From assembly GCF_000768675.1 (NCBI RefSeq), contig NZ_AVPI01000030.1, forward strand, positions 1 to 48,036: a stretch of 48,036 nt of DNA. The letters are read 5' to 3'. Positions 1 to 47,171 of the stretch are shown one piece after another. Below the pieces are notes generated by a model, which was not told the DNA's origin, did no database searches, and saw only the letters and a program-made list of their open reading frames with translations. Source of the stretch: Knoellia flava TL1 (GTDB taxonomy: Bacteria > Actinomycetota > Actinomycetes > Actinomycetales > Dermatophilaceae). The first letter of the stretch is position 1. The number at the start of each line of letters is the position of its first letter. The position numbers and the translations under genes are program-made.

Positions 1-908
1 CCACCGTGCCCCGCGAACCCGCCGGATCCGCCCCGACGCCCCTGGTCGCGTCCGGACCTCCCGCGTCCCTGACCGCCGGGTCCTCGCCCGGGACCGCGGC
101 CACGCTCCCGCCCGACGTCCCCACGGCCGCTGTCGAGGTGGCGGGTGCTCCCCCGCACCCAGCCGTCGTCGGCGCGGCGCTGCTCGGCGCCGCGGATCGC
201 CTGGACGAGCTCGGGGTTGACCCGTGGCGTCGACCCGTCCTCGCGAGGCTCGGCGGTCTCGTCGACGAAGAGGTCGAACATCGAGGTGCCGACGAGCATG
301 TGCTGCCAGAGCGGCACCGGCCGGTGCTCCGAGACGACCACCGCATGGTTGCCGCGCACCTCGGCGAGCCAGTCGCCGAACTCCTCGGCGTTGCTCACCG
401 TCGCCGACAGCGAGACGACCTGCACCGACTCGGGCAGGTGGATGATGACCTCCTCCCAGACGGCGCCGCGGAAGCGGTCCGCGAGGTAGTGAACCTCGTC
501 CATGACGACGAAGCCGAGTCCTCGGAGGGTGGACGAGCCGGCATACACCATGTTGCGGAGCACCTCGGTCGTCATGACGACGACGGGAGCCTCACCGTTG
601 ACCGACGCGTCGCCCGTGAGGAGGCCGACCTTGTCGGGTCCGTGGACGGCGACGAGGTCGTGGTACTTCTGGTTCGACAGCGCCTTGATGGGCGTCGTGT
701 AGAACGCCTTGCGTCCCGTCGCCAGCGCGAGGTGGACGGCGAACTCGCCGACGATCGTCTTGCCGGCCCCCGTCGGTGCCGCGACGAGGACCCCCTGTCC
801 TGCCTCGACGGCACGACACCCCTCGAGCTGGAACTCGTCGAGGTCGAAGCCCTGGGAGGCGACGAAGGTCGCGAGGTGCGAGGACGGCTCCGCAGTGGGC
901 TCGCTCAT
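1..908 (-). CDS. Ski2-like DEAD/DEAH-box RNA helicase, N-terminal part (cut by window edge)
   Basis: About 302 N-terminal residues of a superfamily 2 helicase are present; the reading frame stays open to base 1. Visible motifs in order are Walker A APTGAGKT (44-51), motif Ia TTPIKALSNQKY (71-82), motif II DEVH (137-140) and motif III SAT (168-170). The DEVH box and the Ia wording fit the Ski2/Mtr4-like helicases that actinobacteria usually carry next to tatC. The family unwinds RNA with ATP hydrolysis; the bacterial substrate is not settled. ATG at 908 lies 9 bp after the lipid kinase stop, so the gene is probably the last member of the pafB-pafC-tatA-tatC unit. The C-terminal helicase lobe lies outside the window. 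Confidence 0.9.
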   Translation of the reverse strand, partial: MSEPTAEPSSHLATFVASQGFDLDEFQLEGCRAVEAGQGVLVAAPTGAGKTIVGEFAVHLALATGRKAFYTTPIKALSNQKYHDLVAVHGPDKVGLLTGDASVNGEAPVVVMTTEVLRNMVYAGSSTLRGLGFVVMDEVHYLADRFRGAVWEEVIIHLPESVQVVSLSATVSNAEEFGDWLAEVRGNHAVVVSEHRPVPLWQHMLVGTSMFDLFVDETAEPREDGSTPRVNPELVQAIRGAEQRRADDGWVRGSTRHLDSGRGDVGRERGRGPGRGPGGQGRGRSGRDQGRRGGSGGFAGHG

Positions 909-917
909 GCGGTCAGG

Positions 918-1814
918 CTACGTCAGGACGGTCACTGCTCCGGGGACGACCTCGCACTCGATCGGCAGCGGTTCGAACCGCTCGCCGTCGGCGTAGGAGA
1001 CGATGCCCTTCGCCTCGAGCCGCACATGACGGCCGGTCAGGATCTCGACGGCCGGATGGTCGACGTGCGCGCCCTTGAAGACCTTGGGGAAGACCTTGAG
1101 CAGCGTGGGGATCGACACCTCGTGGAGGATGAGGACGTCGATCATCCCGTCGTCGTAGGACGCGCTCGGGACGACCTTCATGCCCCCTCCGTATGCCGGC
1201 CCGTTGGCGACCGCGACCAGCATCGCCTTGGTCTCGTGCCGGGTGCCGTCGATCTCGACGACGTAGGGAATCGGCCTGAAGACGCCGAGCTCGCGCGCGA
1301 TGGCGAGGTTGTAGCGCATCTGGCCCTTGGGCCAGCGCCACCCGTTGGCCCGCTCGTTGACGACGGCGTCGAAGCCGGCGGCGAGGACGCCCACGAACCA
1401 GCGCGGGTTGCCGTGCGGGTCGAGGACGCGGACCGCGTCGATGCGCCTGGTCGCGCCGCGGGTGATCCGCTCGACCGCCTTGGCGGCGTCCCGCACCGGC
1501 AGTCCCAGCTCACGGGCGTTGTCGTTGCCCGTGCCCGCGGCGATGATGCCCAGCGGCACGTCCGTGCCGGCGACGAGGTTGACGCCCAGGTGGACCATGC
1601 CGTCGCCACCGGCCACGACGAGGACGTCGACCGACCGGGCCTCGATGGCGGCCCGGGCACGCTCGACGGCGTGCGCGCCGTCCATGGCCGAGAGGTCGAC
1701 GACCTCGTGACCGGCGGCGGCGAGCAGCGACGCGGCCTCCCTCCCGATCCGGGCGCCGGTGTTCTTGCCGGCCGTCGGGTTGATGACGAGGCCGACGCGC
1801 AGGTGCGCGCTCAC
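918..1814 (-). CDS. Diacylglycerol/lipid kinase family protein (YegS/DagK type)
   Basis: 298 aa. The diacylglycerol-kinase catalytic signature is seen: NPTAGK near the N-terminus (12-17), GGDG (69-72, here GGDGM rather than GGDGT) and AAGTGND (92-98), which form the nucleotide site in this family. Members phosphorylate diacylglycerol, sphingoid bases or other lipids; the exact substrate cannot be read from sequence. The GTG start at 1814 overlaps the tatC stop by 4 bp (GTGA), which indicates translational coupling. The change of Thr to Met in the glycine-rich loop is a small oddity. Confidence 0.88.
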   Translation of the reverse strand: MSAHLRVGLVINPTAGKNTGARIGREAASLLAAAGHEVVDLSAMDGAHAVERARAAIEARSVDVLVVAGGDGMVHLGVNLVAGTDVPLGIIAAGTGNDNARELGLPVRDAAKAVERITRGATRRIDAVRVLDPHGNPRWFVGVLAAGFDAVVNERANGWRWPKGQMRYNLAIARELGVFRPIPYVVEIDGTRHETKAMLVAVANGPAYGGGMKVVPSASYDDGMIDVLILHEVSIPTLLKVFPKVFKGAHVDHPAVEILTGRHVRLEAKGIVSYADGERFEPLPIECEVVPGAVTVLT

Positions 1815-2653
1815 AGCGTCGAGGCCTCGTCGTCCGACGTCTGCAGCCAGTCGGGCCGCTCCTGCTCACGGCGCCGGTCGAGCAGGCGCGCGATGCCGTA
1901 GGCGACGAAGTAGAGGACGACGAGCGGGGTCGCCAGCAGGAGCATCGTGTAGGGGTCAGGCGTCGGCGTCGCGATCGCGGCGAAGAGCACGATGAGCACC
2001 ACCGCCGGGCGCCAGCCCTTGAGCATGACGTGTGAGGGCAGGACCTTGGCGACGTTGAGCGCGACGAGGACGACCGGGAAGAGGAAGGCGATCCCGAAGA
2101 CGAGGATGAAGCGTGTGACGAAGGAGAAGTAGAGCGCCGCCTCGGGCAGGTTGGCCGCTCCCTCGGGCGTGAACCCGAGGAGGATCTCGACCGCCTTGGG
2201 CAGGGTGACGTAGCCGAACCAGCAGCCGCCGAGGAAGAGCGGGACGATCGCCGCGATGAACATCAGCGAGATCCGCTTCTCCTTCTTCGTCAGCCCGGGG
2301 ACGATGAAGGCCCACGCCTGCCAGAGCCACATGGGCGCCGACATGATCGTCCCCGCCCAGATGGCCAGGCTGAGGCGCTGCGAGAAGGCGGCCGTGAGTC
2401 CGGCGTAGTTGAGGTCGATGAGCGACCCCTCACCCCGCTGCTCGGCAATCGTCGCGATGGGGCGGGTGAGGTGCTCGTAGATGATGTCGAAGAGGTACCA
2501 CCCGACGACCGAGCATGCGATGAGGGCCGCGGCGGCGATGAAGAGCCGTCGCCGGAACTCGCGCAGGTGGTCGCCCAGCGACATCCTGCCCTCGGGGTCG
2601 CGCCGGCGCCGTCGGGGCAGCCGAGGGCGACCGGGTCTTGCAACTCGGGCCAT
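1811..2653 (-). CDS. tatC: Sec-independent protein translocase subunit TatC
   Basis: 280 aa multi-spanning membrane protein and core of the twin-arginine translocase, which exports folded proteins. The N-terminal cytoplasmic signature SLGDHLREFRRR (25-36) and the long hydrophobic segments with a conserved Pro/Glu pattern are typical of TatC. The start is uncertain. ATG at 2653 gives a basic leader ending in RDPEGRM, common in actinobacterial TatC, but has no clear ribosome site. An internal ATG at 2584 (MSLGDHL) has GAGG upstream. It lies 14 bp after tatA and overlaps the lipid kinase start, so tatA-tatC-kinase form one unit. Confidence 0.95.
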   Translation of the reverse strand: MARVARPGRPRLPRRRRRDPEGRMSLGDHLREFRRRLFIAAAALIACSVVGWYLFDIIYEHLTRPIATIAEQRGEGSLIDLNYAGLTAAFSQRLSLAIWAGTIMSAPMWLWQAWAFIVPGLTKKEKRISLMFIAAIVPLFLGGCWFGYVTLPKAVEILLGFTPEGAANLPEAALYFSFVTRFILVFGIAFLFPVVLVALNVAKVLPSHVMLKGWRPAVVLIVLFAAIATPTPDPYTMLLLATPLVVLYFVAYGIARLLDRRREQERPDWLQTSDDEASTL

Positions 2654-4986: not shown

Positions 4987-6090
4987 GTGATGCAGTGGCG
5001 CGAGGGCGTGGTCGTCCGACAGATCCGTGAGTGGCCCGGAGCCGTCGAGTATGCCGTGACGCTCGCTCCCGCCGCCGACGCACCGACCGAGGTGCGCGCC
5101 CTCGCCTACACGGCGATGGTGGGCCGGCCCGAGGTGGGCGACCGAGTCGTCCTCAACGCCTCGGCGCTGCTCAAGGGGCTCGGTACCGGTGGGCTCGCCT
5201 TCGTCGTCGCCGTGCCCGACCGGCTGCCGGCCGACGCCCCCGACTCCCCCGGCCACATCGTCAAGGCCCGCTACACCCCACAGCAGCAGATGTTCCTCGC
5301 CGTCGACGAGCAGGACAGCCCGCACCACCACGTCCTGCGTGACGCCGAGTCGGTCGAGGGCATGCCCGTCGTCGTCGCGGATCTCCACTCGTCCCTGCCC
5401 GCCGTCATCGCAGGCGTGCGCACGGTCGACCCCGACGCGAGGGTCGCCTACGTCATGACCGACGGTGGTGCCCTCCCCCTCGCCTTCTCGCGCGCGGTCG
5501 CCGGGCTCAAGGAGGCGGGGTGGCTCACCTCGACGATCACCGTCGGGCAGGCCTTCGGCGGTGACCACGAGGCGGTCTCGCTGCACAGCGGGCTGCTCGC
5601 CGCCAAGCACGTCGCGGGCGCCGACGTCACGGTCGTCACCCAGGGGCCGGGCAACGTCGGCACCGGCACGCGCTGGGGCTACTCCGGTGTCGCCGCCGCA
5701 GACGCGCTCCACGCGACGACGGCCCTCGGGGGCACTCCCGTCGCCGCACTCCGCGTCTCGGGAGCCGACCCAAGACCGAGGCACCGCGGGATCTCGCACC
5801 ACAGCACGACGGCATACGGGGATGCGCTCTTCTCCCCGGCGGTCGTGCCGGTCCCGGCAGGCGGGGGCGAGCTGGCCGCGCTCGTGCGCTCGCAGGCGGC
5901 GACGCTCGCCGAACGCAGCCGTGCCGACCTCGAGGTCGTCGAGGTCGGCACGGAGGGCCTGCTGGAGGCGCTGCGCTCGTCCCCGGTCCGGCTGTCGACG
6001 ATGGGTCGGGGCCTCGAGGAGGACCTCGCCGCCTTCGTCGTCAGCGCCGTCGCCGGGGTGTGCGCGGCGCAGCGGGTCAGCGCACGCTGA
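4987..6090 (+). CDS. DUF3866 family protein
   Basis: 367 aa, function unknown. The protein starts GTG-ATG (MM) and shows the family pattern: an N-terminal beta-rich region with KARYTPQQQM, a central segment in which a conserved YVMTDGGALP precedes GQAFGGDHEAVSL, and TQGPGNVGTGTRWGYSG. The Gly-rich and His/Asp motifs look like an enzyme active site, but no reaction is known to me. The gene is regularly found beside pafB in actinobacteria. Its 3' end overlaps the convergent FKBP gene by 14 bp. Confidence 0.9.
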   Translation: MMQWREGVVVRQIREWPGAVEYAVTLAPAADAPTEVRALAYTAMVGRPEVGDRVVLNASALLKGLGTGGLAFVVAVPDRLPADAPDSPGHIVKARYTPQQQMFLAVDEQDSPHHHVLRDAESVEGMPVVVADLHSSLPAVIAGVRTVDPDARVAYVMTDGGALPLAFSRAVAGLKEAGWLTSTITVGQAFGGDHEAVSLHSGLLAAKHVAGADVTVVTQGPGNVGTGTRWGYSGVAAADALHATTALGGTPVAALRVSGADPRPRHRGISHHSTTAYGDALFSPAVVPVPAGGGELAALVRSQAATLAERSRADLEVVEVGTEGLLEALRSSPVRLSTMGRGLEEDLAAFVVSAVAGVCAAQRVSAR

Positions 6091-7545: not shown

Positions 7546-8907
7546 TCACATCCCTGAGATGAGCCGCTCCACCCGGGGGTCCTCGTTGCGGAACGGGTCC
7601 TTGCACAGGACGGTGCGCTGGGCCTGGTCGTTGAGCTTGAGGTGGACCCAGTCGACGGTGAAGTCGCGCCGGTGCTCCTGCGCCGCGCGGATGAAGTCGC
7701 CACGCAGCTTGGCCCGGGTCGTCTGCGGTGGCCGGACCTTGGCCTCGAAGACCTCGGGGTCGGTGACGGCGCGAGCCGCCCTCCCCCGCGCCTGGAGCAG
7801 GTAGAAGAGCCCGCGGTGTCGGGTGATGTCGTGGTAGGCGAGGTCGATCTGTGCGAGCCGCGGGTGCTCGAGGTCGAGGCCGTGCCTCGTGGCGTAGTCG
7901 TCGAGCAGGCGGTACTTGATCATCCAGTCGATCTCGGTGTCGACGGCCGCGTGGTTGCCGGTCTCGATGGCGTCCAGCGTGCGCTCCCACAGGTCGAGGA
8001 CCGTCTTGTGGTCGGGGTCGCGTGCGCCCTCGCGCTCGACGTATGCCGTCGCGGCGGCGAGGTACTCGCGCTGCAGGTCGAGGGCGCTGAGCTCCCGGCC
8101 GTTGGCGAGACGGACGAGCCGCCGCCCCGTCATGTCGTGGCTGATCTCGCGGATCGCCCGGATGGGGTTCTCGAGGGTGAGGTCGCGCATGACGACGCCG
8201 TCCTCGATCATCCGGAGCACGAGGTCGCACGACCCGACCTTGAGCATCGTCGTCGTCTCGCTCATGTTGGAGTCGCCGACGATGACGTGGAGGCGCCGGT
8301 ACTGCTCGGCGTCGGCGTGCGGCTCGTCGCGGGTGTTGATGATCGGCCGGCTGCGCGTCGTCGCCGACGAGACGCCCTCCCAGATGTGGTCCGCCCGCTG
8401 GCTCACGGCATACTCCACGCCCTTCGAGGTGCGTACGAGCTTGCCTGCGCCGCACGTAATCTGGCGGCTGATGAGGAACGGCAGCAGGGTGTCGGAGAAC
8501 ACCTGGAAGTCGCCGCCGCGCCCGACGAGGTAGTTCTCGTGGCAGCCGTAGGAGTTGCCGGCGGAGTCGGTGTTGTTCTTGAAGACGTAGATCTCGCCGG
8601 TGACGCCGTCCTCGCGCAGCCGGGCCTGGGCGTCGGCGACGAGCCCCTCGACGACCCGCTCCCCCGCCCGGTCGTGCGCGACGAGCTGGCGCAGCGAGTC
8701 GCACTCGGCGGTGGCGTACTCCGGGTGGCTGCCGACGTCGAGGTAGAGCCGCGAGCCGTTGGCGAGGAAGACGTTGCTCGAGCGACCCCAGGCGACGACC
8801 TTGCGGAAGAGGTAACGGGCGACCTCGTCGGGCGTGAGTGTGCGCTGGCCCTCGGACGAGGCGGTGATGCCGTACTCGTTCTCGATCCCGAAGATCCGTC
8901 GCTCCAT
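7546..8907 (-). CDS. pafA: Pup--protein ligase PafA
   Basis: 453 aa. PafA uses ATP to join the C-terminal Glu of Pup to substrate lysines. The carboxylate-amine ligase fold starts with [13 protein letters not shown] (Glu9 in the Mg-ATP site); [17 protein letters not shown] (54-70) carries Asp57 at the place of the conserved catalytic Asp. [20 protein letters not shown] is the second family signature. The Dop-specific loop is absent, which separates it from dop in this window. ATG at 8907 is 6 nt after a TAGGGT hexamer with no ribosome site, which suggests a leaderless transcript. Two plus-strand genes separate it from prcA. Confidence 0.97.
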
Positions 8908-9769: not shown

Positions 9770-9810
9770 GTATGCCGTGTGGTCCCGGTGGACGGGACCA
9801 CACGGCATAC
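9770..9810. promoter_or_regulatory. Perfect 17-bp palindrome built from two facing octamers, just ahead of the hydrolase start
   Basis: GTATGCCGTGTGGTCCC (9770-9786) is the exact reverse complement of 9794-9810, with a 7-base loop. Both outer ends are the recurring octamer GTATGCCG/CGGCATAC. The right end lies 10 nt before the ATG at 9821, and no Shine-Dalgarno sequence is seen. It could be an operator, a terminator or a structure controlling translation. Confidence 0.6.
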
Positions 9811-10593: not shown

Positions 10594-11403
10594 TCAGTCG
10601 GCGTCGGGCGTGGGCTCGTCCCCGTGGCGCTGGGTCTGCGGGTTGCTCGCGGCCTGCCGCGGGGTGTCGTGGTCGACCGGTGGCACGTCGTCGGTGGGGT
10701 CGTCGTCGGAGAGCAGCTGGCCGAGCAGGTCGCCGTTGATCCTGCGGAAGGTCCGGCGGGTGCGCGTGCGGTCGAGCACGGCGACCTCGAGCTGGTCGGG
10801 GCCGAGCTCGCGGTCGGGCCCGCCCGCCGGGTCGTGCGCGAGCCCGTCGACGGCGAGCCGGAGCGCCTCGGCGAGTGTGAGACCGGGCTGCCACTGCTCG
10901 GTGAGCCGCTCCTCGATCTGGTCCGACGCACCGCCCATCGCGACGAGCCCGTGCTCGTCGGCGACCGAGCCGTCGTAGGTGAGGCGGTAGATCTGGTCGC
11001 TCTCCGCGTCACGGCCGACCTCGGCCACGACGATCTCGACCTCGTAGGGCTTGGACTCCTGGGTGAAGACCGTGCCGAGCGTCTGCGCGTAGGCGTTGGC
11101 GAGACCCCGGGCGGTGACGTCGCTGCGGTCGTAGGAGTAGCCGCGCAGGTCGGCGTAGCGGACGCCGGCGACCCGAAGGTTCTCGAACTCGTTGTACTTG
11201 CCGACCGCCGCGAAGGCGATGCGGTCGTAGATCTCGCCGATCTTGTGCAGGCTGCGCGAGGGGTTCTCGGCGACGAAGGCGATGCCGTGGTCGTAGCCGA
11301 GGACGAGAACCGAGCGGCCGCGAGCGATGCCCTTGCGAGCGAAGTCCGCCCGGTCCTTCATGAGCTGCTCGGGCGAGACGTAGAACGGCATACCGGCTGT
11401 CAT
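10594..11403 (-). CDS. prcA: 20S proteasome alpha subunit PrcA
   Basis: 269 aa. The alpha rings gate the proteasome core. The N-terminus [29 protein letters not shown] has the alpha-subunit H0 helix and lacks a catalytic Thr propeptide; the C-terminal tail is acidic/Gln-rich and presumably disordered. ATG at 11403 overlaps the prcB stop by 4 bp. A second in-frame ATG (residue 5) lies inside an octamer copy and begins the conserved MPFY, so the true start could be either one. Confidence 0.96.
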
Positions 11404-12242
11404 GACGCACTCCCGTCGCGGCGGCCGCCGGCGTTGCCCCGGCGGTGCTCGATGATCGCGTCGACGACGGGAGCGACCGCGTCGTCGGCGACGAAGCGCG
11501 CGCCCTCGGCGGTGACGAGCGCGACCGTCGGCCAGATGCGCCTGCCGACGTCGGGGCCGCCCGTGGCGGAGTCGTCGTCCGCCGCGTCCCACAGGGCCTC
11601 GACCGCCACGCGAAGCGCCTCGTCGGGGCCCATACCGGGGCGGTAGAGCTTCTTCATCGCGCCGCGGGCGAAGAGCGAGCCCGAGCCGACGCTGTGGTGG
11701 TCGTGCTCCTCGTAGCAGCCGCCCGTGACGTCGTAGCTGAAGATCCGGCCCAGCGACGACTGATGGTCGTAGCCGGCGAAGACCGGCACGACGCTGAGCC
11801 CCTGCATCGCCATCCCGAGGTTGCCCCGGATCATCGAGGCGAGCCGGTTGGCCTTGCCCTCGAGGGACATGAGCGTGCCCTCGATCTTCTCGTAGTGCTC
11901 GAGCTCGACCTGGAAGAGGCGGACGAGCTCGATCGCGAGCCCCGCCGTGCCGGCGATGCCGACGACCGAGAACTCGTCGGTCGCGAAGACCTTCTCCATG
12001 TCGCGGTTGGCGATGATGTTGCCCATCGTCGCCCGGCGGTCACCGGCCATGAGCACGCCGCCGTCGAAGGTCAGCGTGACGATCGTCGTCCCGTGGGGCG
12101 CGTCGATCGTCGCTCCCGGCGGCAGGCCGCGCCGTGAGGGGATGAGGCTCGGCTCGTGCTCGGCGACGAAGTCCGTGAACGACGACGAACCGGTGCGGAG
12201 GTATGCCGCGGGGAGACGGCCGCCGTCGGGCACCGGGGTCAC
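11400..12242 (-). CDS. prcB: 20S proteasome beta subunit PrcB
   Basis: 280 aa including a propeptide of about 51 residues. Cleavage before Thr52 ([10 protein letters not shown]) exposes the catalytic N-terminal Thr. GDRRAT and the lysine region of the active site follow ([12 protein letters not shown], 58-69). It forms the inner beta rings that degrade pupylated proteins unfolded by Mpa. The GTG start at 12242 overlaps the pup stop by 4 bp (GTGA), and its own stop overlaps prcA, so pup-prcB-prcA are tightly coupled. Confidence 0.97.
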
Positions 12243-12479: not shown

Positions 12480-14006
12480 CTAGTCGGAGGGTCCGTCGGC
12501 GACGGCGAGCGACGCGAGCAGTGACCGGATGTCGGGCGCTCCCTCGATGAGGTCGCCCACCGCGGCGCGCGTCCCACGCAGGGGCTCGAGGATGGGGATC
12601 CGCTGCAGCGACCGCTCCCCCGGGACCTCGACGACGACCGAGTCCCACGACGCTGCCACGACCGAGTCCGGGAACCGGCGCAGGCACTCGCCCCGGAACC
12701 AGGCGCGCGTGTCCTCGGGTGCGCGGTCCATGGCGGCGGCGGCCTCCTCCTCGGGGACGAGCACCTCGACCCGGCCGGTGGCGGCGAGCCGGTGCGCGAG
12801 GCCGCGGTCGGCGCGCACGTCGGACCACTGGATGTCGACGGCCCGGAGGCGAGGGTCGCCCCAGCCCAGCGAGTCGCGCTCCCGGTAGCCCTCGAGGACC
12901 GCCAGCTTGGCGACCCAGTCGACCCACCGGCGGGCATCCATCGGGTCGCCCTCGAGCGCCGTGAGGACGCGGTCCCACCACGTGAGGACCTCGGTGGTCT
13001 CGGCGTCGACGTCGCTCCCCCACTTCTGCTCGACATAGGCGGAGGTGAGCTCGAAGTAGGTCCGGAGCAGCTCGACGGGCCGGATCGAGCGCCCGTCGGC
13101 GAGGTCGATCGTCGACTGCAGCGTCGGGTCATGGCTCACCGCCTGGAGCGTGCGCACCGGGGCGAGCACCGACAGGTCCTGGGTGAAGGCGTCGTCCTCG
13201 ATCATCGCGAGCACGAGCGAGGTCGAGCCCATCTTGAGCAGGTTGGCGACGTCGCAGTGGTTGGCGTCGCCGAGGATGACGTGGAGGCGGCGGTAGAGGT
13301 CGGCGACGGCGTGCGGCTCGTCGCGGGTGTTGATGATGGGCCGCTTGAGCGTCGTCTCGAGCCCGACCTCGGTCTCGAAGAAGTCGCTGCGCTGGGCGAG
13401 CTGGTAGCCGGGCGTCCGCGAGTCGACGCCGATGCCGACGCGCCCCGAGCCGCACATCACCTGGCGCACGACGAAGAACGGCGTGAGCTGGGAGATGATC
13501 CGCGCGAACGGCGTGCGCCGCGACATGAGGTAGTTCTCGTGGGTGCCGTAGGACGCACCCTTGCCGTCGGTGTTGTTCTTGTAGAGGTTGACCCCGGGCG
13601 GGACCGTGGCGAGCCGCTGCACGGCCTCGCGCATGACGAGCTCGCCGGCCTTGTCCCAGACGACGGCGTCGCGCGGTGTCGTCACCTCGGGCGAGGAGTA
13701 CTCCGGGTGGGCGTGGTCGACGTAGAGGCGGGCGCCGTTGGTGAGGACGACGTTGGCCATCGTCGGGTCCTCGACGTCGGTGAGCTGGCTCGGGTGCGCC
13801 GCCCCGCGTCCCATGTCGAACCCGCGGGCGTCGCGCAGCGGCGCCTCGTCCGCGTAGTCCCACGAGGCCTGCGCGGGGCGGATGCCCCGGCTCGCGGCAT
13901 ACGTCGTCACGACGTCGCCGGAGAGAACCATCGGGTTGGCGCCGGGTGCACCGGGGACGGAGATGCCGTACTCGGTCTCGATGCCCATGACCCGTCGGAC
14001 CGTCAT
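12480..14006 (-). CDS. dop: Pup deamidase/depupylase Dop
   Basis: 508 aa. Dop converts the Pup C-terminal Gln to Glu and also removes Pup from substrates. It shares the PafA fold: GIETEYG (8-14) in the ATP site and LYVDHAHPEYSSPE (94-107) with Asp97 at the conserved catalytic position. It carries the extra Dop-loop region (about 40-80) that PafA lacks, plus NLYKNNTDGKGASYGTHENYLM. An upstream ATG at 14060 would add 18 unlikely residues; ATG at 14006 (MTVRRVMGIETEYG) matches the family. The pup ATG is 52 bp downstream. Confidence 0.96.
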   Translation of the reverse strand: MTVRRVMGIETEYGISVPGAPGANPMVLSGDVVTTYAASRGIRPAQASWDYADEAPLRDARGFDMGRGAAHPSQLTDVEDPTMANVVLTNGARLYVDHAHPEYSSPEVTTPRDAVVWDKAGELVMREAVQRLATVPPGVNLYKNNTDGKGASYGTHENYLMSRRTPFARIISQLTPFFVVRQVMCGSGRVGIGVDSRTPGYQLAQRSDFFETEVGLETTLKRPIINTRDEPHAVADLYRRLHVILGDANHCDVANLLKMGSTSLVLAMIEDDAFTQDLSVLAPVRTLQAVSHDPTLQSTIDLADGRSIRPVELLRTYFELTSAYVEQKWGSDVDAETTEVLTWWDRVLTALEGDPMDARRWVDWVAKLAVLEGYRERDSLGWGDPRLRAVDIQWSDVRADRGLAHRLAATGRVEVLVPEEEAAAAMDRAPEDTRAWFRGECLRRFPDSVVAASWDSVVVEVPGERSLQRIPILEPLRGTRAAVGDLIEGAPDIRSLLASLAVADGPSD

Positions 14007-14062
14007 GAACCCATCCCAGCGACACCGGATCTCGACATGAGCCAAGCCAACCATGACCACGG

Positions 14063-14068
14063 CATACT
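14063..14068 (+). promoter_or_regulatory. -10 element of leaderless alpha/beta hydrolase promoter
   Basis: CATACT ends 6 nt before the ATG at 14075 and includes the right half of an octamer copy (CGGCATAC, 14060-14067). Confidence 0.45.
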
Positions 14069-20358: not shown

Positions 20359-20370
20359 TACGTGCGGCGG

Positions 20371-20383: not shown

Positions 20384-24208
<3,825 letters not shown>

Positions 24209-33295: not shown

Positions 33296-33984
33296 GCGGG
33301 GGCTCCTGTGCGGATCTCGAGCTCGTGGCGGGCCGCGAGGTCACGCGCGCCGTGCACGAGGTCGGGCCGGGTGGCGATGATGCTGCCGACGGCGAGGCAG
33401 GTGATCGCTCCCTCTCCGAGGCCGATGAGGGTGTGCCAGCCCAGCATCGCCGCGGTGAGCTCGGCGAGCGGGATCGGCGCGTGCCCGCCGACGGCATACA
33501 GGGCCGTGAACGTGAGCGCCGCGACCGGGACGGAGACCACGGCAGCGACCCCGGCGAGGGCGGGCACGACGCCCACCCCGGTCGGGCGCACGAGGCGGCG
33601 CAGGCCGACGAAGACGAGCCAGCCGGTCCAGACCCCGACCACCGCCATGAGGACGACGTTGGTGCCGAGCGCGGTGATGCCACCGTCGGCGAAGAGAAGG
33701 CTCTGGACGGCGAGCACGACGGTGAGGCAGAGCGTCGCCGTCCACGGACCCACGAGGACCGCGGCGAGGGCGCCGCCGAGGAGGTGGCCGGACGTGCCGG
33801 CGCCCACGGGGAAGTTGAGCATCTGGGCGGCGAAGACGAAGACGGCGACGAGACCGGCCAGCGGGGCGGTGCGGTCGTCGAGCTCGCGTCGGGCCCGGTT
33901 GAGCGCCAGGCCCACGGCACCCGCGGCCACGGCGGCCGTGGCGAGCGACGTGGGGGCGTCGAGGAACCCGTCGGGGACGTGCAT
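33292..33984 (-). CDS. cbiM: Nickel/cobalt-binding membrane subunit CbiM
   Basis: 230 aa substrate-specificity subunit. MHVPDGFLD at the extreme N-terminus provides the His2 and amino-terminal metal ligands needed in the family, and FPVGAGTSGHLLGGALAA contains the conserved inner His. Seven hydrophobic segments follow. ATG at 33984 has GGAAGG upstream. A Nur-box-like palindrome lies 12-35 nt upstream, so nickel-responsive control of the operon is likely. Confidence 0.94.
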   Translation of the reverse strand: MHVPDGFLDAPTSLATAAVAAGAVGLALNRARRELDDRTAPLAGLVAVFVFAAQMLNFPVGAGTSGHLLGGALAAVLVGPWTATLCLTVVLAVQSLLFADGGITALGTNVVLMAVVGVWTGWLVFVGLRRLVRPTGVGVVPALAGVAAVVSVPVAALTFTALYAVGGHAPIPLAELTAAMLGWHTLIGLGEGAITCLAVGSIIATRPDLVHGARDLAARHELEIRTGAPA

Positions 33985-35730: not shown

Positions 35731-36605
35731 GTCGCGCTGAGCCAGCCCGCGCCGAGCGCGAGGAACATCACCGCACCGAGCACGACGCGGTAGGCGATGA
35801 ACGAGATGAGCGAGTTGCTCTGGACGAACCTCAGCAGCCACGCGATCGAGGCGTAGGCGACGACGAAGGCGACGACCATGCCGGTGAGGATCGGCCCGAC
35901 GCCGAGCGCCTTGAGCGCGTCGACGTTGTCGAGGGTCTCGTAGATGCCGGCGCCGGTGAGGGCGGGGATCGCGAGGAAGAAGGAGAGCTCGGTCGAGGTG
36001 ACGCGGTCGATGCCGCGCATGAGCCCCGCCGAGATCGTCGCGCCGGACCGCGAGACGCCGGGGACGAGCGAGAAGCACTGGACGAGACCGATGACGAGGC
36101 CGTCCTTGATCGTCAGTGCGTCCTCGCCACGCTGGTCCCCCGCGGCCTCGAGCACGTCGTGGCGACGCTCGGCGACCCACATCACGGCGCTCCAGAGGAT
36201 GAGCGCGGCCGCGACGACCCAGAGGCTGCGCAGCGGGCCCGAGATGAGGTCCTTGAGCAGCAGGGCGGTGACGACGACGGGCAGCGACCCGACGATGACC
36301 GCCCACGCGAGCTGGTAGTCGTGCTCCCTTCGCGCCTCCGCGCTGCGCAGGCCGGCGACCCAGGCGAGGAAGAGACGGAGGATCTTCTTCCCGAAGTACG
36401 TGAACGTCGCGAGGATGGCCCCGATCTGGATCAGTGCCGTGTATGCCGTCACGGCCGGTGCGTCGACCGGCATGCCGAGGAGCTTCTCGGCGATCGTGAG
36501 GTGGCCCGTGGACGAGACGGGGAGGTACTCGGTGAGGCCCTCGACGATGCCGAGGACGACGGACTGGAAGTAGCTGAGCTCGACGGCGGGGTCGGCAACG
36601 ATCAC
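35727..36605 (-). CDS. uppP: Undecaprenyl-diphosphate phosphatase UppP
   Basis: 292 aa integral membrane enzyme that recycles undecaprenyl pyrophosphate for cell-wall synthesis; its overproduction gives bacitracin resistance. EGLTEYLPVSSTGHL (22-36) and PGVSRSGATI are the two active-site motifs of the BacA/UppP family, with about eight membrane spans. Its start overlaps the stop of the F420-type oxidoreductase gene by 4 bp (36602-36605), so the two are cotranscribed. Confidence 0.96.
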   Translation of the reverse strand: MIVADPAVELSYFQSVVLGIVEGLTEYLPVSSTGHLTIAEKLLGMPVDAPAVTAYTALIQIGAILATFTYFGKKILRLFLAWVAGLRSAEARREHDYQLAWAVIVGSLPVVVTALLLKDLISGPLRSLWVVAAALILWSAVMWVAERRHDVLEAAGDQRGEDALTIKDGLVIGLVQCFSLVPGVSRSGATISAGLMRGIDRVTSTELSFFLAIPALTGAGIYETLDNVDALKALGVGPILTGMVVAFVVAYASIAWLLRFVQSNSLISFIAYRVVLGAVMFLALGAGWLSAT

Positions 36606-37675
36606 GGTGTGGGGACTTCCTCGGCGTGGGACGGGACGAGCTCGGACATGACGCGCAGGGTGGAGAGCCGCTCCTCGACGGTGAGGGCGAAGGGCGAGAC
36701 GCCCAGGGTGGTGACGCCGGCCTCGGCGTAGCGGCCGACGCGGCTGCGGATGCGCTCGGGCGGGCCGATGAGGGCGGTGGCGTCGATGAACTCGACCGGG
36801 ACCGCGGCCGCCGCGTCGCGGTGCTGCCCGGCGAGGAAGAGCTCCTGGACCCGGGCCGCCTCCTCCTCGAAGCCCATCCGGCAGGCGAGCTGGTTGTAGA
36901 AGTTCTTCTCCCGCGAGCCCATGCCGCCGATGTAGAGGGCCGAGTAGGCCGCGACGGCCTGCGCGCCCGCCTCGACGTCATCGGTGACGACGACCGGCAC
37001 GGTCGGCACGATGTCGAACCCGGCCATCGGGTCGTCCTCGGTGCCCTTGCCCGCGGCACGCCGCCCGGTGGCGATCGACCCGAGGATGTCGCCGGAGTGC
37101 TCGGGCGAGAAGAAGATCGCGAGCCACCCGTCGGCGATCTCGCCGGCGAGCTCGAGGTTCTTGGGGCCGACGGCTGCGAGGTAGACCGGCACGTGCTTCT
37201 GGGTCGGCGCGATCGTCAGCTTGAGGGCCTTGCCGGGACCGTCCGGAAGCGGCAGCGTGAAGTGCTCCCCGGCATACTCCACGCGCTCGCGCGCGAGGGC
37301 GCGACGCACGATCTCGACGTACTCGCGCGTGCGGGCCAGCGGCTTGCCGAAGCGGACGCCGTGCCAGCCCTCGCTCACCTGTGGTCCGGAGACACCGAGC
37401 CCGAGGCGGAAGCGTCCGCCGGAGAGGTGGTCGAGCGTCGCGGCCGTCATCGCCGTCATCGCCGGGGTGCGGGCGGGGATCTGCATGACCGCGGAGCCGA
37501 GCCCGATGTGCTCGGTGCGGGCGCCGATCCACGACAGGAACGTCACGGCGTCGCTGCCGTAGGCCTCGGCGACCCACGCGGAGTCGTAGCCCAGCCGATC
37601 GGCCTCGGCGGCCAGGGCGAGCATGTCCTGGCTCGAGGACAGCCCCATGTAGCCGAGGTTCACCGCGAGTCGCAT
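36602..37675 (-). CDS. LLM-class F420-dependent oxidoreductase
   Basis: 357 aa luciferase-like TIM-barrel. LAAEADRLGYDSAWVAEAYGSDAVT, GSAVMQIPARTPAMTAMTAATLD and GRFRLGLGVSGPQVSEGWHG are the strand/loop patterns of the F420-dependent branch. The substrate is unknown. TACGGT ends 6 nt before the ATG, so the mRNA that also carries uppP is probably leaderless. Confidence 0.9.
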   Translation of the reverse strand: MRLAVNLGYMGLSSSQDMLALAAEADRLGYDSAWVAEAYGSDAVTFLSWIGARTEHIGLGSAVMQIPARTPAMTAMTAATLDHLSGGRFRLGLGVSGPQVSEGWHGVRFGKPLARTREYVEIVRRALARERVEYAGEHFTLPLPDGPGKALKLTIAPTQKHVPVYLAAVGPKNLELAGEIADGWLAIFFSPEHSGDILGSIATGRRAAGKGTEDDPMAGFDIVPTVPVVVTDDVEAGAQAVAAYSALYIGGMGSREKNFYNQLACRMGFEEEAARVQELFLAGQHRDAAAAVPVEFIDATALIGPPERIRSRVGRYAEAGVTTLGVSPFALTVEERLSTLRVMSELVPSHAEEVPTP

Positions 37676-39709: not shown

Positions 39710-39747
39710 GGCCGAGGGGTCGATTTCGCTCGGGCCGGTATGCCGTG

Positions 39748-41844: not shown

Positions 41845-43356
41845 TCAGGGCTGGTACGCGTCAGCCGCCTGGCGCAGTCTGTCGAACGGTTCGGCGAGGG
41901 CCGCGGCGCCCGGCTGGGTGAGCTTGCCGTCCTCCGCCGCCTGGCTCAGCTCCTTCTCGATGTCGTCCACGAGCGAGGACACCGCAGGAGCGTCCTCGTC
42001 GCGCACCTTGGCGTCGATGTCGCGCAGCTTGTCCGAGATGGTCCCGGCCACGTCCGCCTCGATGTCGCCGCTCTGCCGCGCGTCGCGCAGGCTCGACTGG
42101 AAGTCGGCGACCGCAGCACTCACGGCCGCGCCCGTGTCGGCCGGAGTCGTGGGGGTGGCGGACGGCGTGGGCGTCGTCGTGATCGTCACCGTCGGGTTGG
42201 GGGTCTGCGTCTCGGGCGTGGGCGTCGGCGTCGGCGTCTCCGACGGTGCCTCGGAGGTCTGGGACACGGTCGGCGTCGTCGAGGGCGTCTCGGCGCCGCC
42301 GTCGTCCCTGCCCTGCAGGAGGTACCACAGGCCGGTGGCAGCGAGTGCGAGGGCGAGCAGCAGCAGCCAGACCCACGCTCGCGACTCGCGTCGCTCGGGC
42401 TCGAGGTCCCGCCTGTATGCCGGCTCGACCCACCTCTCCTCAGTCGGCTCCGGTGGTGGCGCGACGGTCGGGGGCGCAACGCCGCCGGCGGCCGCCGGGA
42501 GCACCTCGGTGAGCGCCGGCGCCCGGTGGGCACGCAGCAGCTCGGCCACCTCCCGGCCGGACTGGGGCCGGTGGGCGGGGTCCTTGGCGAGCAGGCCCGC
42601 GATGAGCCCGGCGAGATCCGGGGGTGCGTCGGGACGCAGGTCGCGCACGTCGGGTGGGACCTCGTGGGCGTGCTTCATGAGGATGGCGACGGGCGTCGGC
42701 GCCGAGAACGGCGGCGTGCCGGTGAGCAGCGTCGTGAGGACGCAGCCGAGGGCATAGAGGTCGGCCCGGGCGTCGACCCGCTGGCCGGTGGCCTGCTCGG
42801 GCGCGAGGTACTCGGCGGTGCCGACGATCGTGTCGGTCATCGTCAGCTGGTGGCCGTGGCCGAGCGCCTCGTCGACGAGCTGGGTGATGCCGAAGTCGAG
42901 AACCTTGGCGGTGCCGTCGGCGGCGTAGGCGATGTTGCCCGGCTTGATGTCGCGGTGGACGATGCCCGCGTCGTGGGCGGCCTGGAGCGCACTCGCGACC
43001 TCCTCGCCGATGATCCGGACCTCCTCGACCGCGAAGGGCCCGGAGTCGCGCACCTGCTCGGCGAGGGTCGGCCCCGGCAGGAGCTCCATGACGAGGTATG
43101 CCGTGTGCTCCTCGACCCCGGTGTCGTAGACCGTGACGATGTGGGGGTGGTTGAGCGCGGCCGTGGCCCGGGCCTCTCGGCGGAACCGCTCCCCCGCGTT
43201 GTCGCTGTCGGGACCGGTGAGGTCGAGCGTCTTCACCGCGACCTCGCGGCCGAGCATCTCGTCCTGGGCACGCCAGACGACGGCCATGCCACCCCTCCCC
43301 AGAGGGGCTCCGAGTCGATAACGGCCGCCGAGCAGCCGTCCCTGCGTCTGGGTCAT
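41845..43356 (-). CDS. Transmembrane serine/threonine protein kinase (PknB-like)
   Basis: 503 aa. An N-terminal Hanks kinase domain has the Gly-loop LGRGGMAVVW (19-28), Lys42, HRDIKPGN (134-141) and DFG (154-156), plus APE in YLAPEQATG. A proline/charged linker leads to one transmembrane helix (about 330-350), then a Thr/Pro-rich stalk and a helical extracellular domain of about 90 residues. No PASTA repeats are seen, so it is not a canonical PknB. ATG at 43356 has GAGGAGAAGG upstream. Confidence 0.93.
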   Translation of the reverse strand: MTQTQGRLLGGRYRLGAPLGRGGMAVVWRAQDEMLGREVAVKTLDLTGPDSDNAGERFRREARATAALNHPHIVTVYDTGVEEHTAYLVMELLPGPTLAEQVRDSGPFAVEEVRIIGEEVASALQAAHDAGIVHRDIKPGNIAYAADGTAKVLDFGITQLVDEALGHGHQLTMTDTIVGTAEYLAPEQATGQRVDARADLYALGCVLTTLLTGTPPFSAPTPVAILMKHAHEVPPDVRDLRPDAPPDLAGLIAGLLAKDPAHRPQSGREVAELLRAHRAPALTEVLPAAAGGVAPPTVAPPPEPTEERWVEPAYRRDLEPERRESRAWVWLLLLALALAATGLWYLLQGRDDGGAETPSTTPTVSQTSEAPSETPTPTPTPETQTPNPTVTITTTPTPSATPTTPADTGAAVSAAVADFQSSLRDARQSGDIEADVAGTISDKLRDIDAKVRDEDAPAVSSLVDDIEKELSQAAEDGKLTQPGAAALAEPFDRLRQAADAYQP

Positions 43357-44554: not shown

Positions 44555-44567
44555 CCACCGACGTCGT

Positions 44568-45113
44568 ATGCCGTTGACGAACCCGTGGCTGACCGGCCCT
44601 GCCCCGGATGCCGTCCTGCCGCGGGAGCAGCTGGAGGAGCGCATCCTCAACCTGCTGTCGAGCCACAACCTTGCCGTCGTCGCCACCGTGATGCCTGACG
44701 GGAGTCCGGCCGCGACACCGGTGCGCTACTCCAGCCTCGGCTTCGAGATCTTCTGGACGAGCTGGAACGCGTCGGCGAAGTCGCGCAACCTGCGACGCGA
44801 CCCACGCGTCTCGGCCGGCATCGTGGCTCCACTCGTCGGGCAGGCGAGCAGCCGCGGACTGCAGGTGTTCGGGACCGCACGCACACTCGAGCGCGACGAC
44901 CCCCAGGCCGGGGACTACTGGGAGGCGATGCGCTGGCAGTCCGACCACGTCGAGCGTGGGCTCGGTCTCGACGCGCCTCCCACGGACCCGCTCACGATCA
45001 TCACCCCGCACCGCATGCTCTACACGGAGCACTGGCTGCGCCGCAGCGGCTTCTGCCCACGACAGACCTGGCGACCGCTGGCGGAGGGCGCCTCGCCCAT
45101 CCATCAGACATGA
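44568..45113 (+). CDS. Pyridoxamine 5'-phosphate oxidase-family (split-barrel flavin-binding) protein
   Basis: 181 aa. NLAVVATVMPDGSPAATPVRYSSLGFEIFW (39-68) is the first half of the split barrel that binds FMN or F420 in this family, and KSRNLRRDPRVSAGIV follows. This looks like a general PPOX-type oxidoreductase rather than true PdxH. The ATG at 44568 lies inside an octamer copy (GT-ATG-CCG), 13 bp after DUF3037. The stop overlaps the next gene by 4 bp. Confidence 0.88.
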   Translation: MPLTNPWLTGPAPDAVLPREQLEERILNLLSSHNLAVVATVMPDGSPAATPVRYSSLGFEIFWTSWNASAKSRNLRRDPRVSAGIVAPLVGQASSRGLQVFGTARTLERDDPQAGDYWEAMRWQSDHVERGLGLDAPPTDPLTIITPHRMLYTEHWLRRSGFCPRQTWRPLAEGASPIHQT

Positions 45114-45682
45114 CCACGTATGCCGACCCCGACGAGCAGCAGGCGGCAGCCGCCCTCGAGGAGTTCCTGCGCGAGCGGTCCCCGGCTCTGCAGCACCTCC
45201 AGGCCACCGTGAACGACGCCGTCGACCTCGACGGGTCGGTCGAGAGCCTCGAGCCCCTGTGGGCCTGGGTCAAGGCGAGGCTCCGGCTCGGACCCAGCGG
45301 ACGGCAGCCCTCGTGGTCGAGGCTGGGTGTCGGGGAGCACGAGAGACTCGACGAGGCATCGCTCCAGCTCCTGGATGGCGTCATCTCCTACGTGATCGGC
45401 GTCGTCACCACTGCCGTTCCCGCGGCTACGTGGGAGGTGGCGACCGACCCGCACCCTCGGTACCTCGACCGGAACAAGCCGATGCTGAGAGCCGGCGACT
45501 GGGAACAACTGCCCGCGTCCGCGGTCGGCAACCTGGGTCGCCAGGTGTTCAGCGAGTGGCCTCCCGCCGACGACCGGTTGGCGACCATCGTCCGCTTCTG
45601 GCTCGCGAATATCCCTCGAGCTCCGGTCACCGAGGATGACGCAGTGCCCAGGCGGCGACGGCGCCGGCCGCAGCCACGTTGA
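45110..45682 (+). CDS. Hypothetical protein (not recognised)
   Basis: 190 aa soluble protein, acidic in the first half and ending in a very basic tail RRRRRRPQPR. No motif I know is visible; Trp-rich segments (PLWAWVKAR, ATWEVAT, FWLANIP) suggest a folded domain. It begins MTTYADPDEQQ with a 4-bp overlap (ATGA) on the PPOX-like gene, so it is part of the same unit. Its 3' end overlaps the convergent TrmH gene by 56 bp, encoding the basic tail. Confidence 0.72.
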   Translation: MTTYADPDEQQAAAALEEFLRERSPALQHLQATVNDAVDLDGSVESLEPLWAWVKARLRLGPSGRQPSWSRLGVGEHERLDEASLQLLDGVISYVIGVVTTAVPAATWEVATDPHPRYLDRNKPMLRAGDWEQLPASAVGNLGRQVFSEWPPADDRLATIVRFWLANIPRAPVTEDDAVPRRRRRRPQPR

Positions 45683-46439
45683 GCGAGTCCACTCCCCCGG
45701 CCATGGGGATCGTGACGACGACGTCGGCACCCTCGACCGTGCGCCGGCCCAGCCCGTCACCCTCGGTGCCGAGGACGAGGGCCAGCCGCTCAGGCGGGTC
45801 GGCGGCGAGCTCCTCGAGGCCCACCGCGTCGTCCGACAGGGCCAGCGCCGCGACGGTGAAGCCGCTCTCCCGCAACGTGTCCATCCCGCCGGGCCAGGGG
45901 TCGATGCGTGTCCACGGCACCTGGAACACCGTGCCCATCGACACCCGGATCGCCCGTCGGTAGAGCGGGTCGGCACACCTCGGCGTGACGAGCACGGCGT
46001 CCATGCCGAGGGCGGCGGCGCTGCGGAAGACGGCACCGACGTTCGTGTGGTCGACGACGTCCTCGATGACGAGCACCCGCCGCGCATCGGCGACGACCTC
46101 GGCGACCGGACGCAGCTCCGGGCGCTGCATCGACGCCAGCGCGCCCCGGTGGAGGTGGAACCCCGTGAACCCCTCGATGACCTCGTGGTCCGCGACGAGG
46201 ACCGGTATGCCGTCCGCCTCCGCCTGCGAGACGAGGTCACCGAGGTCGGTGAGCCACCTCTCGGCCATGAGGAGGGAGCGGGGCCGGTGACCGGCGGCGA
46301 ACGCCCGGCGGATGACCTTCTCGGACTCGGCGATGTAGAGCCCCCTCTCGGGCTCGCTCCGCCTCCGGAGCGCGACGTCGGTGAGCCCGACGTAGTCGTG
46401 GACTCGAGGGTCGTCGGGGTCAGTGATCCGGGTCGGCAC
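45627..46439 (-). CDS. SpoU/TrmH-family RNA 2'-O-ribose methyltransferase
   Basis: 270 aa SPOUT methyltransferase. An N-terminal substrate-binding part (about 1-105) precedes the knot domain with DHTNVGAVFRSAAALGMDAVLV, LVLGTEGDGLG and IPMAGGVDSLNVAAAGAV, the three SpoU motifs. It methylates tRNA or rRNA; the site is unknown. Start GTG at 46439 lies 6 nt after TAGCCT. An octamer copy at 46205 forces the rare ATA codon for Ile (DGIP). Confidence 0.93.
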   Translation of the reverse strand: MPTRITDPDDPRVHDYVGLTDVALRRRSEPERGLYIAESEKVIRRAFAAGHRPRSLLMAERWLTDLGDLVSQAEADGIPVLVADHEVIEGFTGFHLHRGALASMQRPELRPVAEVVADARRVLVIEDVVDHTNVGAVFRSAAALGMDAVLVTPRCADPLYRRAIRVSMGTVFQVPWTRIDPWPGGMDTLRESGFTVAALALSDDAVGLEELAADPPERLALVLGTEGDGLGRRTVEGADVVVTIPMAGGVDSLNVAAAGAVAAWALRHPR

Positions 46440-46445
46440 CCTGAG

Positions 46446-46451
46446 AGGCTA
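46446..46451 (-). promoter_or_regulatory. -10 element of leaderless SpoU methyltransferase promoter
   Basis: TAGCCT (minus strand) ends 6 nt before the GTG at 46439. It overlaps the end of the upstream TauE gene. Confidence 0.45.
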
Positions 46452-47171
46452 GAAGACGAGGGCGCGGACGAGGAGGCTGACTCCCGCGACGACGCAGAAG
46501 GTGAGGACCCACCGCCGGAGCCGCTCGCCGTCGAGACGGTGCCGCAGGGGTGACGCGACGGCATACCCGGCTCCGATGAAGGGGAGCCACACGAGCCCGG
46601 CGACGAGCTGCTCACGGGTGAACTCCCCCGCGAGCCCGAGCGAGCCGATTGCCATGACGGCGCCGAGGAGGAAGAAGACGGCGAGCGTGGACCGGATCCG
46701 CTCCGGCCGCTCGTGCTGGAGAACGAGCGCGAGGAAGGGCCCGCCGATGCTCGTCGCCGTGCCGGACACCCCGGCGATGGCGCCCGCGGCGACCGCGTTG
46801 CGGGCGTTCATCCGGACCTCGATGGTCGTGAGCGATGTCGCGACCGTGACGAGGATGAGCACCGCGACAGCGACCGAGATGACCCGTGTCGACAGCAGCG
46901 CCACGGCCACGACGCCCAGGGGTGTCGTCACCAGCCGGGCGAGGAGGGCCCAGCCCAGCTCACGCCAGGCGATGTCGAGTGGCGCGTGGGCGAGCTGAAC
47001 GACCGGGAGGGTGAAGCTCGTGACGAGGACCGCGCCGGGCATGAGGTCGGGCGCCGCGACGACGATGAAGGGCACGGCGACGACGGCCATGCCGAACCCG
47101 ATCATCGACTGGACGAGCGCACCGACGAAGACCGCCAGGCCGAGGCCCAGCAGGACCCACCAGGAGATCAC
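46449..47171 (-). CDS. Sulfite exporter TauE/SafE family membrane protein (copy 1)
   Basis: 240 aa with about eight membrane segments. The N-terminal repeat has FVGALVQSMIGFGMAVVAVP and the second half GAIAGVSGTATSIGGPFLAL, the duplicated motif of the family, which is linked to export of sulfur-containing organic anions. GTG at 47171 overlaps the stop of copy 2 by 4 bp (GTGA); longer frames upstream run through copy 2. Confidence 0.9.
   Translation of the reverse strand: MISWWVLLGLGLAVFVGALVQSMIGFGMAVVAVPFIVVAAPDLMPGAVLVTSFTLPVVQLAHAPLDIAWRELGWALLARLVTTPLGVVAVALLSTRVISVAVAVLILVTVATSLTTIEVRMNARNAVAAGAIAGVSGTATSIGGPFLALVLQHERPERIRSTLAVFFLLGAVMAIGSLGLAGEFTREQLVAGLVWLPFIGAGYAVASPLRHRLDGERLRRWVLTFCVVAGVSLLVRALVF

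Follow-up and report, generated by a model that had tools for sequence, protein, structure and literature searches.

The question raised by this locus is why one octamer recurs so often in it. The window analysed here, a stretch of 48,036 nucleotides from Knoellia flava TL1 (contig NZ_AVPI01000030.1), holds 38 exact copies of GTATGCCG, 20 in forward and 18 in reverse orientation, where 0.71 are expected from dinucleotide shuffles and 1.56 from a third-order Markov model. The original prediction, made from the sequence alone, had reported the same 38 copies and a massive excess; an exact recount agrees and recovers every start position that it named. At 0.79 copies per kb the window is ordinary for its genome (G000; 3.56 Mb in 94 contigs), which contains 2,541 copies (1268 on the plus and 1273 on the minus strand), or 713/Mb, as against 94 (44 and 50) of the reversed word used as a control. 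In one actinobacterial family the word occurs about every 1.4 kb in many genomes and is spaced on each strand separately, and this pattern suggests a tag of self-DNA, recognised on a single strand and most likely during DNA uptake or recombination.

A genome-wide count and a codon-aware null model had been proposed as checks on the prediction, and the excess survives both. When synonymous codons were shuffled within genes in a 448-kb sample, 18.4 genic copies (sd 4.6) were expected and 226 were observed; genes here and throughout were called crudely from GC content at third codon positions (GC3), and all numbers based on open reading frames carry the error of that calling. With the words masked from the background, 864 kb of the genome hold 656 copies where 4.4 are expected, and density in the 448-kb sample is higher in intergenic DNA (0.98/kb) than in genes (0.67/kb). 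Codon choice follows the word closely. In the context G-TAY-GCC-G tyrosine is encoded by TAT rather than TAC in 89 cases against 14, compared with 71 against 1521 for tyrosine codons that no GCC follows; other Tyr-GCC contexts show a weaker pull in the same direction (25 against 110). Similarly, alanine is encoded by GCA in 81 of 121 occurrences of CG-GCN-TAC, and in 2 of 135 where the CG is missing. In its two main frames the word is allowed by 321 amino-acid contexts, and over half of these (170) have it. The earlier suggestion that DNA rather than peptide is selected is thus strongly supported, both by the use of TAT and GCA where they complete the word and by the codon-shuffled null.

Bases flanking the copies show weak preferences only, with the exception of the ninth, which is T in 25 of the 38 window copies and in 70% of 110 intergenic copies from the same genome; the favoured word in G000 is GTATGCCGT. 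The 24 words that differ from GTATGCCG by one mismatch sum to 541 observed against 403 expected, an excess due mainly to CTATGCCG (35 observed, 6.6 expected), GGATGCCG (153 and 83) and GTAGGCCG (92 and 47). Because this excess is small, the predicted reader seems to be strict about sequence.

On the scale of the chromosome the word has no polarity. Copies are balanced in 864 kb (331 plus, 325 minus) and evenly so contig by contig, and neither this per-contig balance nor the complete genome G003, sampled in two separate stretches of 200 kb, shows the origin-to-terminus orientation of FtsK-orienting polar sequences (KOPS). The lack of strand bias had been predicted, and it holds at this scale, but orientation is not thereby irrelevant: copies in the same orientation repel each other, whereas copies in opposite orientation do not. 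This local polarity is a new result. Pairs were scored over an 804.6-kb core of G000 with 650 copies, the islands on contigs C1 and C7 and the whole of contig C41 being left out (656 copies reduced to 650), and in G003 and a genome of another genus, G169, with nothing excluded. Observed-to-expected ratios for same-orientation pairs in G000 are 0.27 at 250–500 bp, 0.36 at 500–750 bp, 0.38 at 750–1000 bp and 0.70 at 1000–1500 bp, while opposite pairs stand at 1.06–1.11 over 250–1000 bp (70/65, 69/65 and 73/66 observed/expected in the three bins); orientation alternates between 445 of 638 neighbours, where 324 (sd 12.5) are expected. Same-orientation ratios in the first three bins are 0.43, 0.43 and 0.97 in G003, in which the 750–1000 bp bin is undepleted, and 0.56, 0.51 and 0.41 in G169; alternations number 197 of 288 (144.8 expected) and 273 of 386 (193.3 expected), and opposite pairs remain near 1 in both (0.97–1.29 at 250–1000 bp). 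None of 72 control octamers of similar abundance behaves in this way: their same/opposite ratio at 250–1000 bp has a minimum of 0.84 and a median of 1.19, against 0.30 for the word.

Avoidance in G000 is similar for convergent and divergent pairs, which rejects directional loading at the word, a process that would deplete divergent pairs only. A rule of one word per gene was likewise rejected, since avoidance at 150–1000 bp is alike within genes (65 observed, 201 expected) and between them (50 and 131). Given avoidance among same-orientation copies and independence of opposite ones, the two orientations are two independent, evenly spaced sets, and each strand therefore carries its own. A toy gain-and-loss simulation of drive with hand-set parameters yields same-orientation avoidance only when the word is read on a single strand and avoidance in all pairs when reading is blind to orientation; the pair data match the single-strand outcome of this model. 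At very short range inverted pairs are in modest excess, with 28 convergent and 21 divergent pairs at 8–48 bp (11 expected of each) and, in G003, 25 opposite pairs within 100 bp where 10 are expected. Density peaks between convergent genes (1.51/kb, compared with 0.72 in genes). A terminator as the main function was rejected, the excess of close inverted pairs being small.

The copies are also spread more evenly than chance would place them (variance/mean 0.59 in 5-kb bins of normal GC in G000), and the larger gaps found in an 864-kb survey of this genome include recently acquired DNA, which lacks the word as it does in the case of uptake sequences. One such island, C1:30272-57738, is low in GC, has an integrase-core transposase gene and contains a single copy, at 49622; another, C7:35821-55514, is word-free and carries genes for a C5 cytosine methylase, an HNH nuclease, a UvrD-type helicase and a transposase by Pfam. 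Within the latter, the region at about 40500-54000 (L217) is an acquired island with the look of a defence cluster, and its transposase is of the integrase-core type (Pfam). The third, C41:2352-12384, belongs to an accessory Tad locus that is almost free of the word (3 copies in 12.4 kb, none at 2360-12384). A further gap of 6.2 kb at C1:307210-313439 has normal GC and ordinary-looking genes. Surveys of 400 kb each found gaps of 9.3 kb (GC 0.685) and 6.7 kb (GC 0.643) in G003 and of 7.0 kb (GC 0.592) in G169.

Individual copies are not fixed in place. In the closest named relative by Mpa, Knoellia remsis (92% protein identity; 83% DNA identity over 18.8 kb), the word is intact at 11 of the 16 window copies that align, compared with 38.6% for octamers with three A/T; the corresponding figures are 3 of 15 in Pedococcus (controls 21%), 6 of 15 in Phycicoccus elongatus (20%) and 1 of 14 in a metagenome-assembled genome, or MAG (20%). 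Single copies turn over, and density is kept rather than position.

Genomes were classed as high if they carried the word at no less than 80/Mb, at least twice as often as the reversed word and in at least 300 copies. Among 186 genomes from 53 genera of the family around Knoellia, Pedococcus and Phycicoccus, which we take to be Intrasporangiaceae/Dermatophilaceae, 110 are high, 9 intermediate and 67 at background, and 31 genera have at least one high genome. No high genome was found among 345 genomes from 19 other families of the order (376 sampled from the order as a whole) or among 110 further genomes at class level (118 sampled). A few genomes outside the family exceed their control two- to threefold, though at low density; by eye, G500 (118 copies in 1.5 Mb against a control of 47) and G559 (386 copies in 7.5 Mb against 176) stand out most. 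Distribution is patchy both between and within genera of the family: three word-free genomes (G065, G118 and G141) are nested in word-rich genera, and loci around mpa contain 12–24 copies per 21.6 kb in Knoellia remsis, Pedococcus bigeumensis, Phycicoccus elongatus and one MAG, and zero in Phycicoccus avicenniae and Janibacter anophelis.

Sister genera use dialects of the word, GTATGNCG in G011 and G012 (the latter without the T form) and GAATGCCG in G020. A weaker dialect, GGATGCCG, was seen in one 20-kb stretch of G024, and one 20-kb stretch of G169 prefers C as the ninth base (TATGCCGC, 13 copies, 0.4 expected). In an Intrasporangiaceae MAG (L012), GGTATGCG and GTATGCGG occur 6 and 5 times where about 0.3 of each are expected, and GTATGCCG once; these words are possibly a further dialect. 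Another frequent octamer, CCCCCTTC/GAAGGGGG, was observed in word-free genomes, with 14 copies (1.3 expected) in L023 and 7 (0.7) in L083, both from Janibacter, and 8 (1.1) in L161 from the word-free G102. The overlapping octamers TTCGACGG, GTCGAACT and CGTCGAAC, present 27–29 times where 2–3 are expected in L127 (G030:C1:1-20000), resemble a local repeat array.

What, then, reads the word? If recognition of duplex DNA were blind to orientation, all neighbours should avoid each other, whereas reading of one strand should space same-orientation neighbours only. We consider it fairly likely that the word is a family-wide self-DNA tag read on single strands, occurring about every 2.5 kb per strand with a same-strand exclusion zone of about 1 kb. 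Single-strand reading takes place in two processes: the entry of single-stranded DNA in transformation, and the resection of broken ends by a helicase-nuclease. Our favoured explanation, held tentatively and at somewhat less than an even chance, is the first, in which GTATGCCG(T) marks the family's own DNA as a dispersed tag that biased DNA acquisition keeps dense, by analogy with the uptake sequences of Neisseria and Haemophilus. The process would be natural transformation through ComEA/ComEC and a Tad-type pilus, with the word read on single-stranded DNA, and preferential uptake would have acted as a drive that filled the sites permitted by codons; unlike the DNA uptake sequence (DUS) and uptake signal sequence (USS) of those genera, the entering or processed strand would itself have to bear the word. 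Transformation is favoured because molecular drive by biased uptake would be expected to produce the density, the heavily filled permitted sites, the restriction to a family, the patchy losses and the dialects. It is favoured also because ComEA/ComEC and Tad-type genes are present, as in Micrococcus luteus, a transformable actinobacterium whose DNA uptake uses comEA, comEC and Flp/Tad pili according to PMC6370729. ComEA and ComEC are found in G000, ComEC in 180 of the 186 family genomes and ATPases of the T2SSE family (PF00437) in 185.

Several points weigh against this explanation. We know of no transformation assay for these genera, and uptake sequences are not known to depend on orientation; PMC1939737 reports that orientation has no influence on uptake by H. 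influenzae. Words at one mismatch add up to little excess (541 observed, 403 expected). None of the genes tested tracks the word (ComEC, PF00437 ATPases, PilM, RecC and the AdnAB-like pair introduced below), and ComEC and the ATPases are found alike in word-rich and word-free genomes. A ComEC domain that is missing, split or weak was noted in 14 of the 110 word-rich genomes and in 6 of the 76 others, hence no association, in a list drawn by eye from Pfam domain matches that breaks outside the domain escape and with the nine intermediates counted as non-high. No candidate for a receptor of the word emerged, and pili of the PilM type (PilM_2) are almost missing from the family, with 7 of 186 genomes and G000 not being one of them. 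The DUS/USS receptor is a minor pilin of the type IV pilus (ComP; ComN is predicted).

Candidate discriminators between word-rich and word-free genomes were rejected in turn. Loss of ComEC does not account for loss of the word: there is no family-wide association, word-free G065 has an intact gene, and word-rich G138 and G064 have it in pieces. ComEC of G118 spans two frames and has an internal TGA; that of G141 is matched at residues 97–412 only, near a contig end, and may be merely cut off. The classical type IV pilus fails on the small number of PilM genomes, and the Tad locus fails since, when 10 word-rich stretches were compared with 10 word-free ones, the gene clusters shared most widely turned up on both sides. 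Presence of ComEA, found at 19 of 20 sampled loci, does not discriminate; among the word-free genomes, G022 has a shortened gene and G031 yielded none. RecBCD was rejected as a reader, being absent from the genus and, across the family, not associated with the word (RecC in 48 of 110 high and 41 of 76 other genomes; Fisher p 0.18).

The main rival is a Chi-like signal for an AdnAB-type helicase-nuclease, which we regard as possible but on balance unlikely. Here an enzyme travelling from a double-strand break would read one orientation of the word and switch from degradation to recombination, and each break end would need its own oriented set, so that the orientations are spaced independently; directional reading therefore predicts the same-orientation avoidance and opposite independence seen, and acquired islands lack the word. 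AdnAB is proposed as the reader since RecBCD is missing in the genus, in which RecC (PF04257) is absent from all 9 genomes. A pair of PDDEXK_1 genes a few kb apart was found in all 30 genomes tested, G000 among them, and judging by the arrangement expected for AdnAB is presumably AdnA/AdnB. The regulation of mycobacterial AdnAB and its substitute for Chi recognition are called unclear and largely unexplored in PMC13309787. However, the pair is present equally in 15 word-rich and 15 word-free genomes, and RecC does not track the word. Chi in E. coli (123 sites in 500 kb) is polar, 94 plus to 29 minus, and lacks same-orientation avoidance (2.22 at 0–250 bp, 1.68 at 500–1000 bp), whereas the word has no such leading-strand polarity, being balanced per contig. 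Moreover, a benefit in repair seems too small to fill more than half of the permitted codon contexts; 170 of 321 is probably more than small repair benefits readily explain.

We think it improbable that the word is a classical DNA uptake sequence, recognised as duplex regardless of orientation like DUS/USS. Its density, balance between strands, dialects, restriction to one family, even spacing and absence from islands all match, and so do the close inverted pairs and the density peak between convergent genes, as DUS/USS occur as terminators. Such recognition nevertheless predicts avoidance among all neighbours, and opposite pairs in G000 are undepleted at 250–1000 bp. Under the same treatment, same/opposite counts at 250–1000 bp are 57/204 in G000, 40/81 in G003 and 54/147 in G169; in small, biased samples they are 39/57 for the Neisseria DUS (9/20, 18/17 and 12/20 by bin, the first, at 250–500 bp, leaning the same way as the word) and 17/8 for the Haemophilus USS. 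These samples took 80 loci each of 119 and 88 matching stretches, of which 49 and 32 had usable pairs once close inverted pairs were dropped and repeated pairs counted once, and they make a weak comparison because they come from phage-rich contigs chosen for an inverted pair. They show same-orientation avoidance in at most a weak form, and the pair statistics disfavour a classical uptake sequence.

Less probable still is an asymmetric methylation mark, placed on one strand by an orphan methyltransferase to tell parental strands apart, for which each strand would need a regular set; even spacing per strand and lack of chromosomal polarity agree with it, but a contiguous, asymmetric methylation site of eight bases would be unusual. 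Beyond abundance itself nothing speaks for an origin in codon usage, mutation bias or a repeat element, and such a by-product is refuted by the codon-shuffled null (18.4 against 226), the higher intergenic density, the weak flank preferences, the small one-mismatch excess and the 72 similar octamers without orientation avoidance.

If the word acts in transformation, as the favoured self-DNA tag would, it would, within the reach of our searches, be the first uptake sequence known from outside the Gammaproteobacteria and Betaproteobacteria, and the first with single-strand recognition. To our knowledge, uptake sequences are confined to Neisseriaceae and Pasteurellaceae, and searches of open-licence papers brought up neither this word nor an uptake sequence from Actinobacteria. 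An actinobacterial case would show independent origin in monoderm cells, with single-stranded DNA passing ComEC without an outer-membrane step. If the word acts in repair, it would be the missing Chi equivalent of AdnAB and would bear on a regulation that, according to PMC13309787, is largely unexplored. In either case, the comparison of same- and opposite-orientation pairs is a cheap test, for any iterated motif, of one-strand against blind duplex reading.

Within the window (Table 1), 29 of the 38 copies are genic; 22 of these encode Tyr-Ala or Ala-Tyr, and the remaining 7 are read in different frames. A genic majority encoding these dipeptides had been predicted, with about 27 genic copies and three in other frames; the majority stands and the three become seven. 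The rare GTA codon described in mpa (16534-18198, proteasomal ATPase by Pfam) is present. At 46205 the rare ATA was also recovered, but the name TrmH was not: the open reading frame at 45636-46553 has no Pfam match, and the caller places a reverse-strand gene there. A Tyr-Ala-Tyr-Ala example cited near 25020 exists, though the octamer is CTATGCCG and lies outside the 38. Five copies within 365 bp (26106-26470), four of them outside called genes, form the densest cluster and directly precede a PD-(D/E)XK (RecB-like) nuclease domain at about 26493-27230 (Pfam); the start of that gene is uncertain, and the copies may fall in its 5′ part.

Table 1. Exact copies of GTATGCCG in the window, with strand and the basis of each entry.
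Feature	Position	Strand	Basis
Word copy	539..546	-	exact match
Word copy	1191..1198	+	exact match
Word copy	5049..5056	+	exact match
Word copy	5810..5817	-	exact match
Word copy	8041..8048	+	exact match
Word copy	8406..8413	-	exact match
Word copy, outside called genes, inverted pair with 9803	9770..9777	+	exact match, gene calls
Word copy, inverted pair with 9770	9803..9810	-	exact match, gene calls
Word copy, outside called genes	11386..11393	-	exact match, gene calls
Word copy	12201..12208	+	exact match
Word copy	13895..13902	-	exact match
Word copy, outside called genes	14060..14067	-	exact match, gene calls
Word copy	14890..14897	+	exact match
Word copy in mpa, frame GTA TGC CGG (rare GTA)	17750..17757	-	exact match, Pfam, gene calls
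Word copy	20055..20062	+	exact match
Word copy	20171..20178	-	exact match
Word copy, frame with rare ATA	20368..20375	-	exact match, gene calls
Word copy in B12-dependent methionine synthase gene	22032..22039	-	exact match, Pfam, gene calls
Word copy in B12-dependent methionine synthase gene	23205..23212	-	exact match, Pfam, gene calls
Word copy, outside called genes	24220..24227	+	exact match, gene calls
Word copy	26106..26113	+	exact match
Word copy, local cluster, outside called genes	26216..26223	-	exact match, gene calls
Word copy, local cluster, outside called genes	26280..26287	+	exact match, gene calls
Word copy, local cluster, outside called genes	26353..26360	+	exact match, gene calls
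Word copy, local cluster, outside called genes	26463..26470	-	exact match, gene calls
Word copy	29691..29698	+	exact match
Word copy	30751..30758	+	exact match
Word copy, GTA frame	32211..32218	-	exact match, gene calls
Word copy	33492..33499	-	exact match
Word copy	36441..36448	+	exact match
Word copy	37270..37277	-	exact match
Word copy, ATA frame	39738..39745	+	exact match, gene calls
Word copy in protein-kinase gene	42415..42422	+	exact match, Pfam, gene calls
Word copy in protein-kinase gene	43096..43103	+	exact match, Pfam, gene calls
Word copy	44566..44573	+	exact match
Word copy	45118..45125	+	exact match
Word copy, ATA frame	46205..46212	+	exact match, gene calls
Word copy, outside called genes	46559..46566	-	exact match, gene calls

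Among known systems, HIP1 of cyanobacteria had been offered as an analogy, and it is apt in so far as both are highly iterated octamers in genes and intergenic DNA. It is weak otherwise: HIP1 (GCGATCGC) is a palindrome tied to orphan methyltransferases (PMC4390886), whereas GTATGCCG is not its own reverse complement, and its orientation matters. Of the functions suggested with that analogy, an uptake word or a motif for repair or recombination fits the data, and a nucleoid motif leaves the orientation effect unexplained. Chi, the signal of RecBCD/AddAB, is likewise an octamer (in E. coli), genome-wide and apparently read by orientation; the word differs in its lack of leading-strand polarity, its greater density, its same-orientation avoidance, which E. 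coli Chi does not have, and the absence of RecC in the genus. With DUS (Neisseriaceae) and USS (Pasteurellaceae) it shares a short, non-palindromic form, hundreds to thousands of strand-balanced copies, confinement to one family, dialects, an even spread and absence from acquired DNA. The extended word GTATGCCGTC has ATGCCGTC in common with the 12-base Neisseria DUS, ATGCCGTCTGAA, probably by coincidence. Unlike DUS/USS, the word belongs to an actinobacterium whose genome has no PilM match, is a strict octamer and shows orientation-specific avoidance; judged indirectly, from its spacing, its recognition would not be independent of orientation. Its density in the genome of K. flava lies within the 500–800/Mb given for Haemophilus-type USS in PMC12616744.

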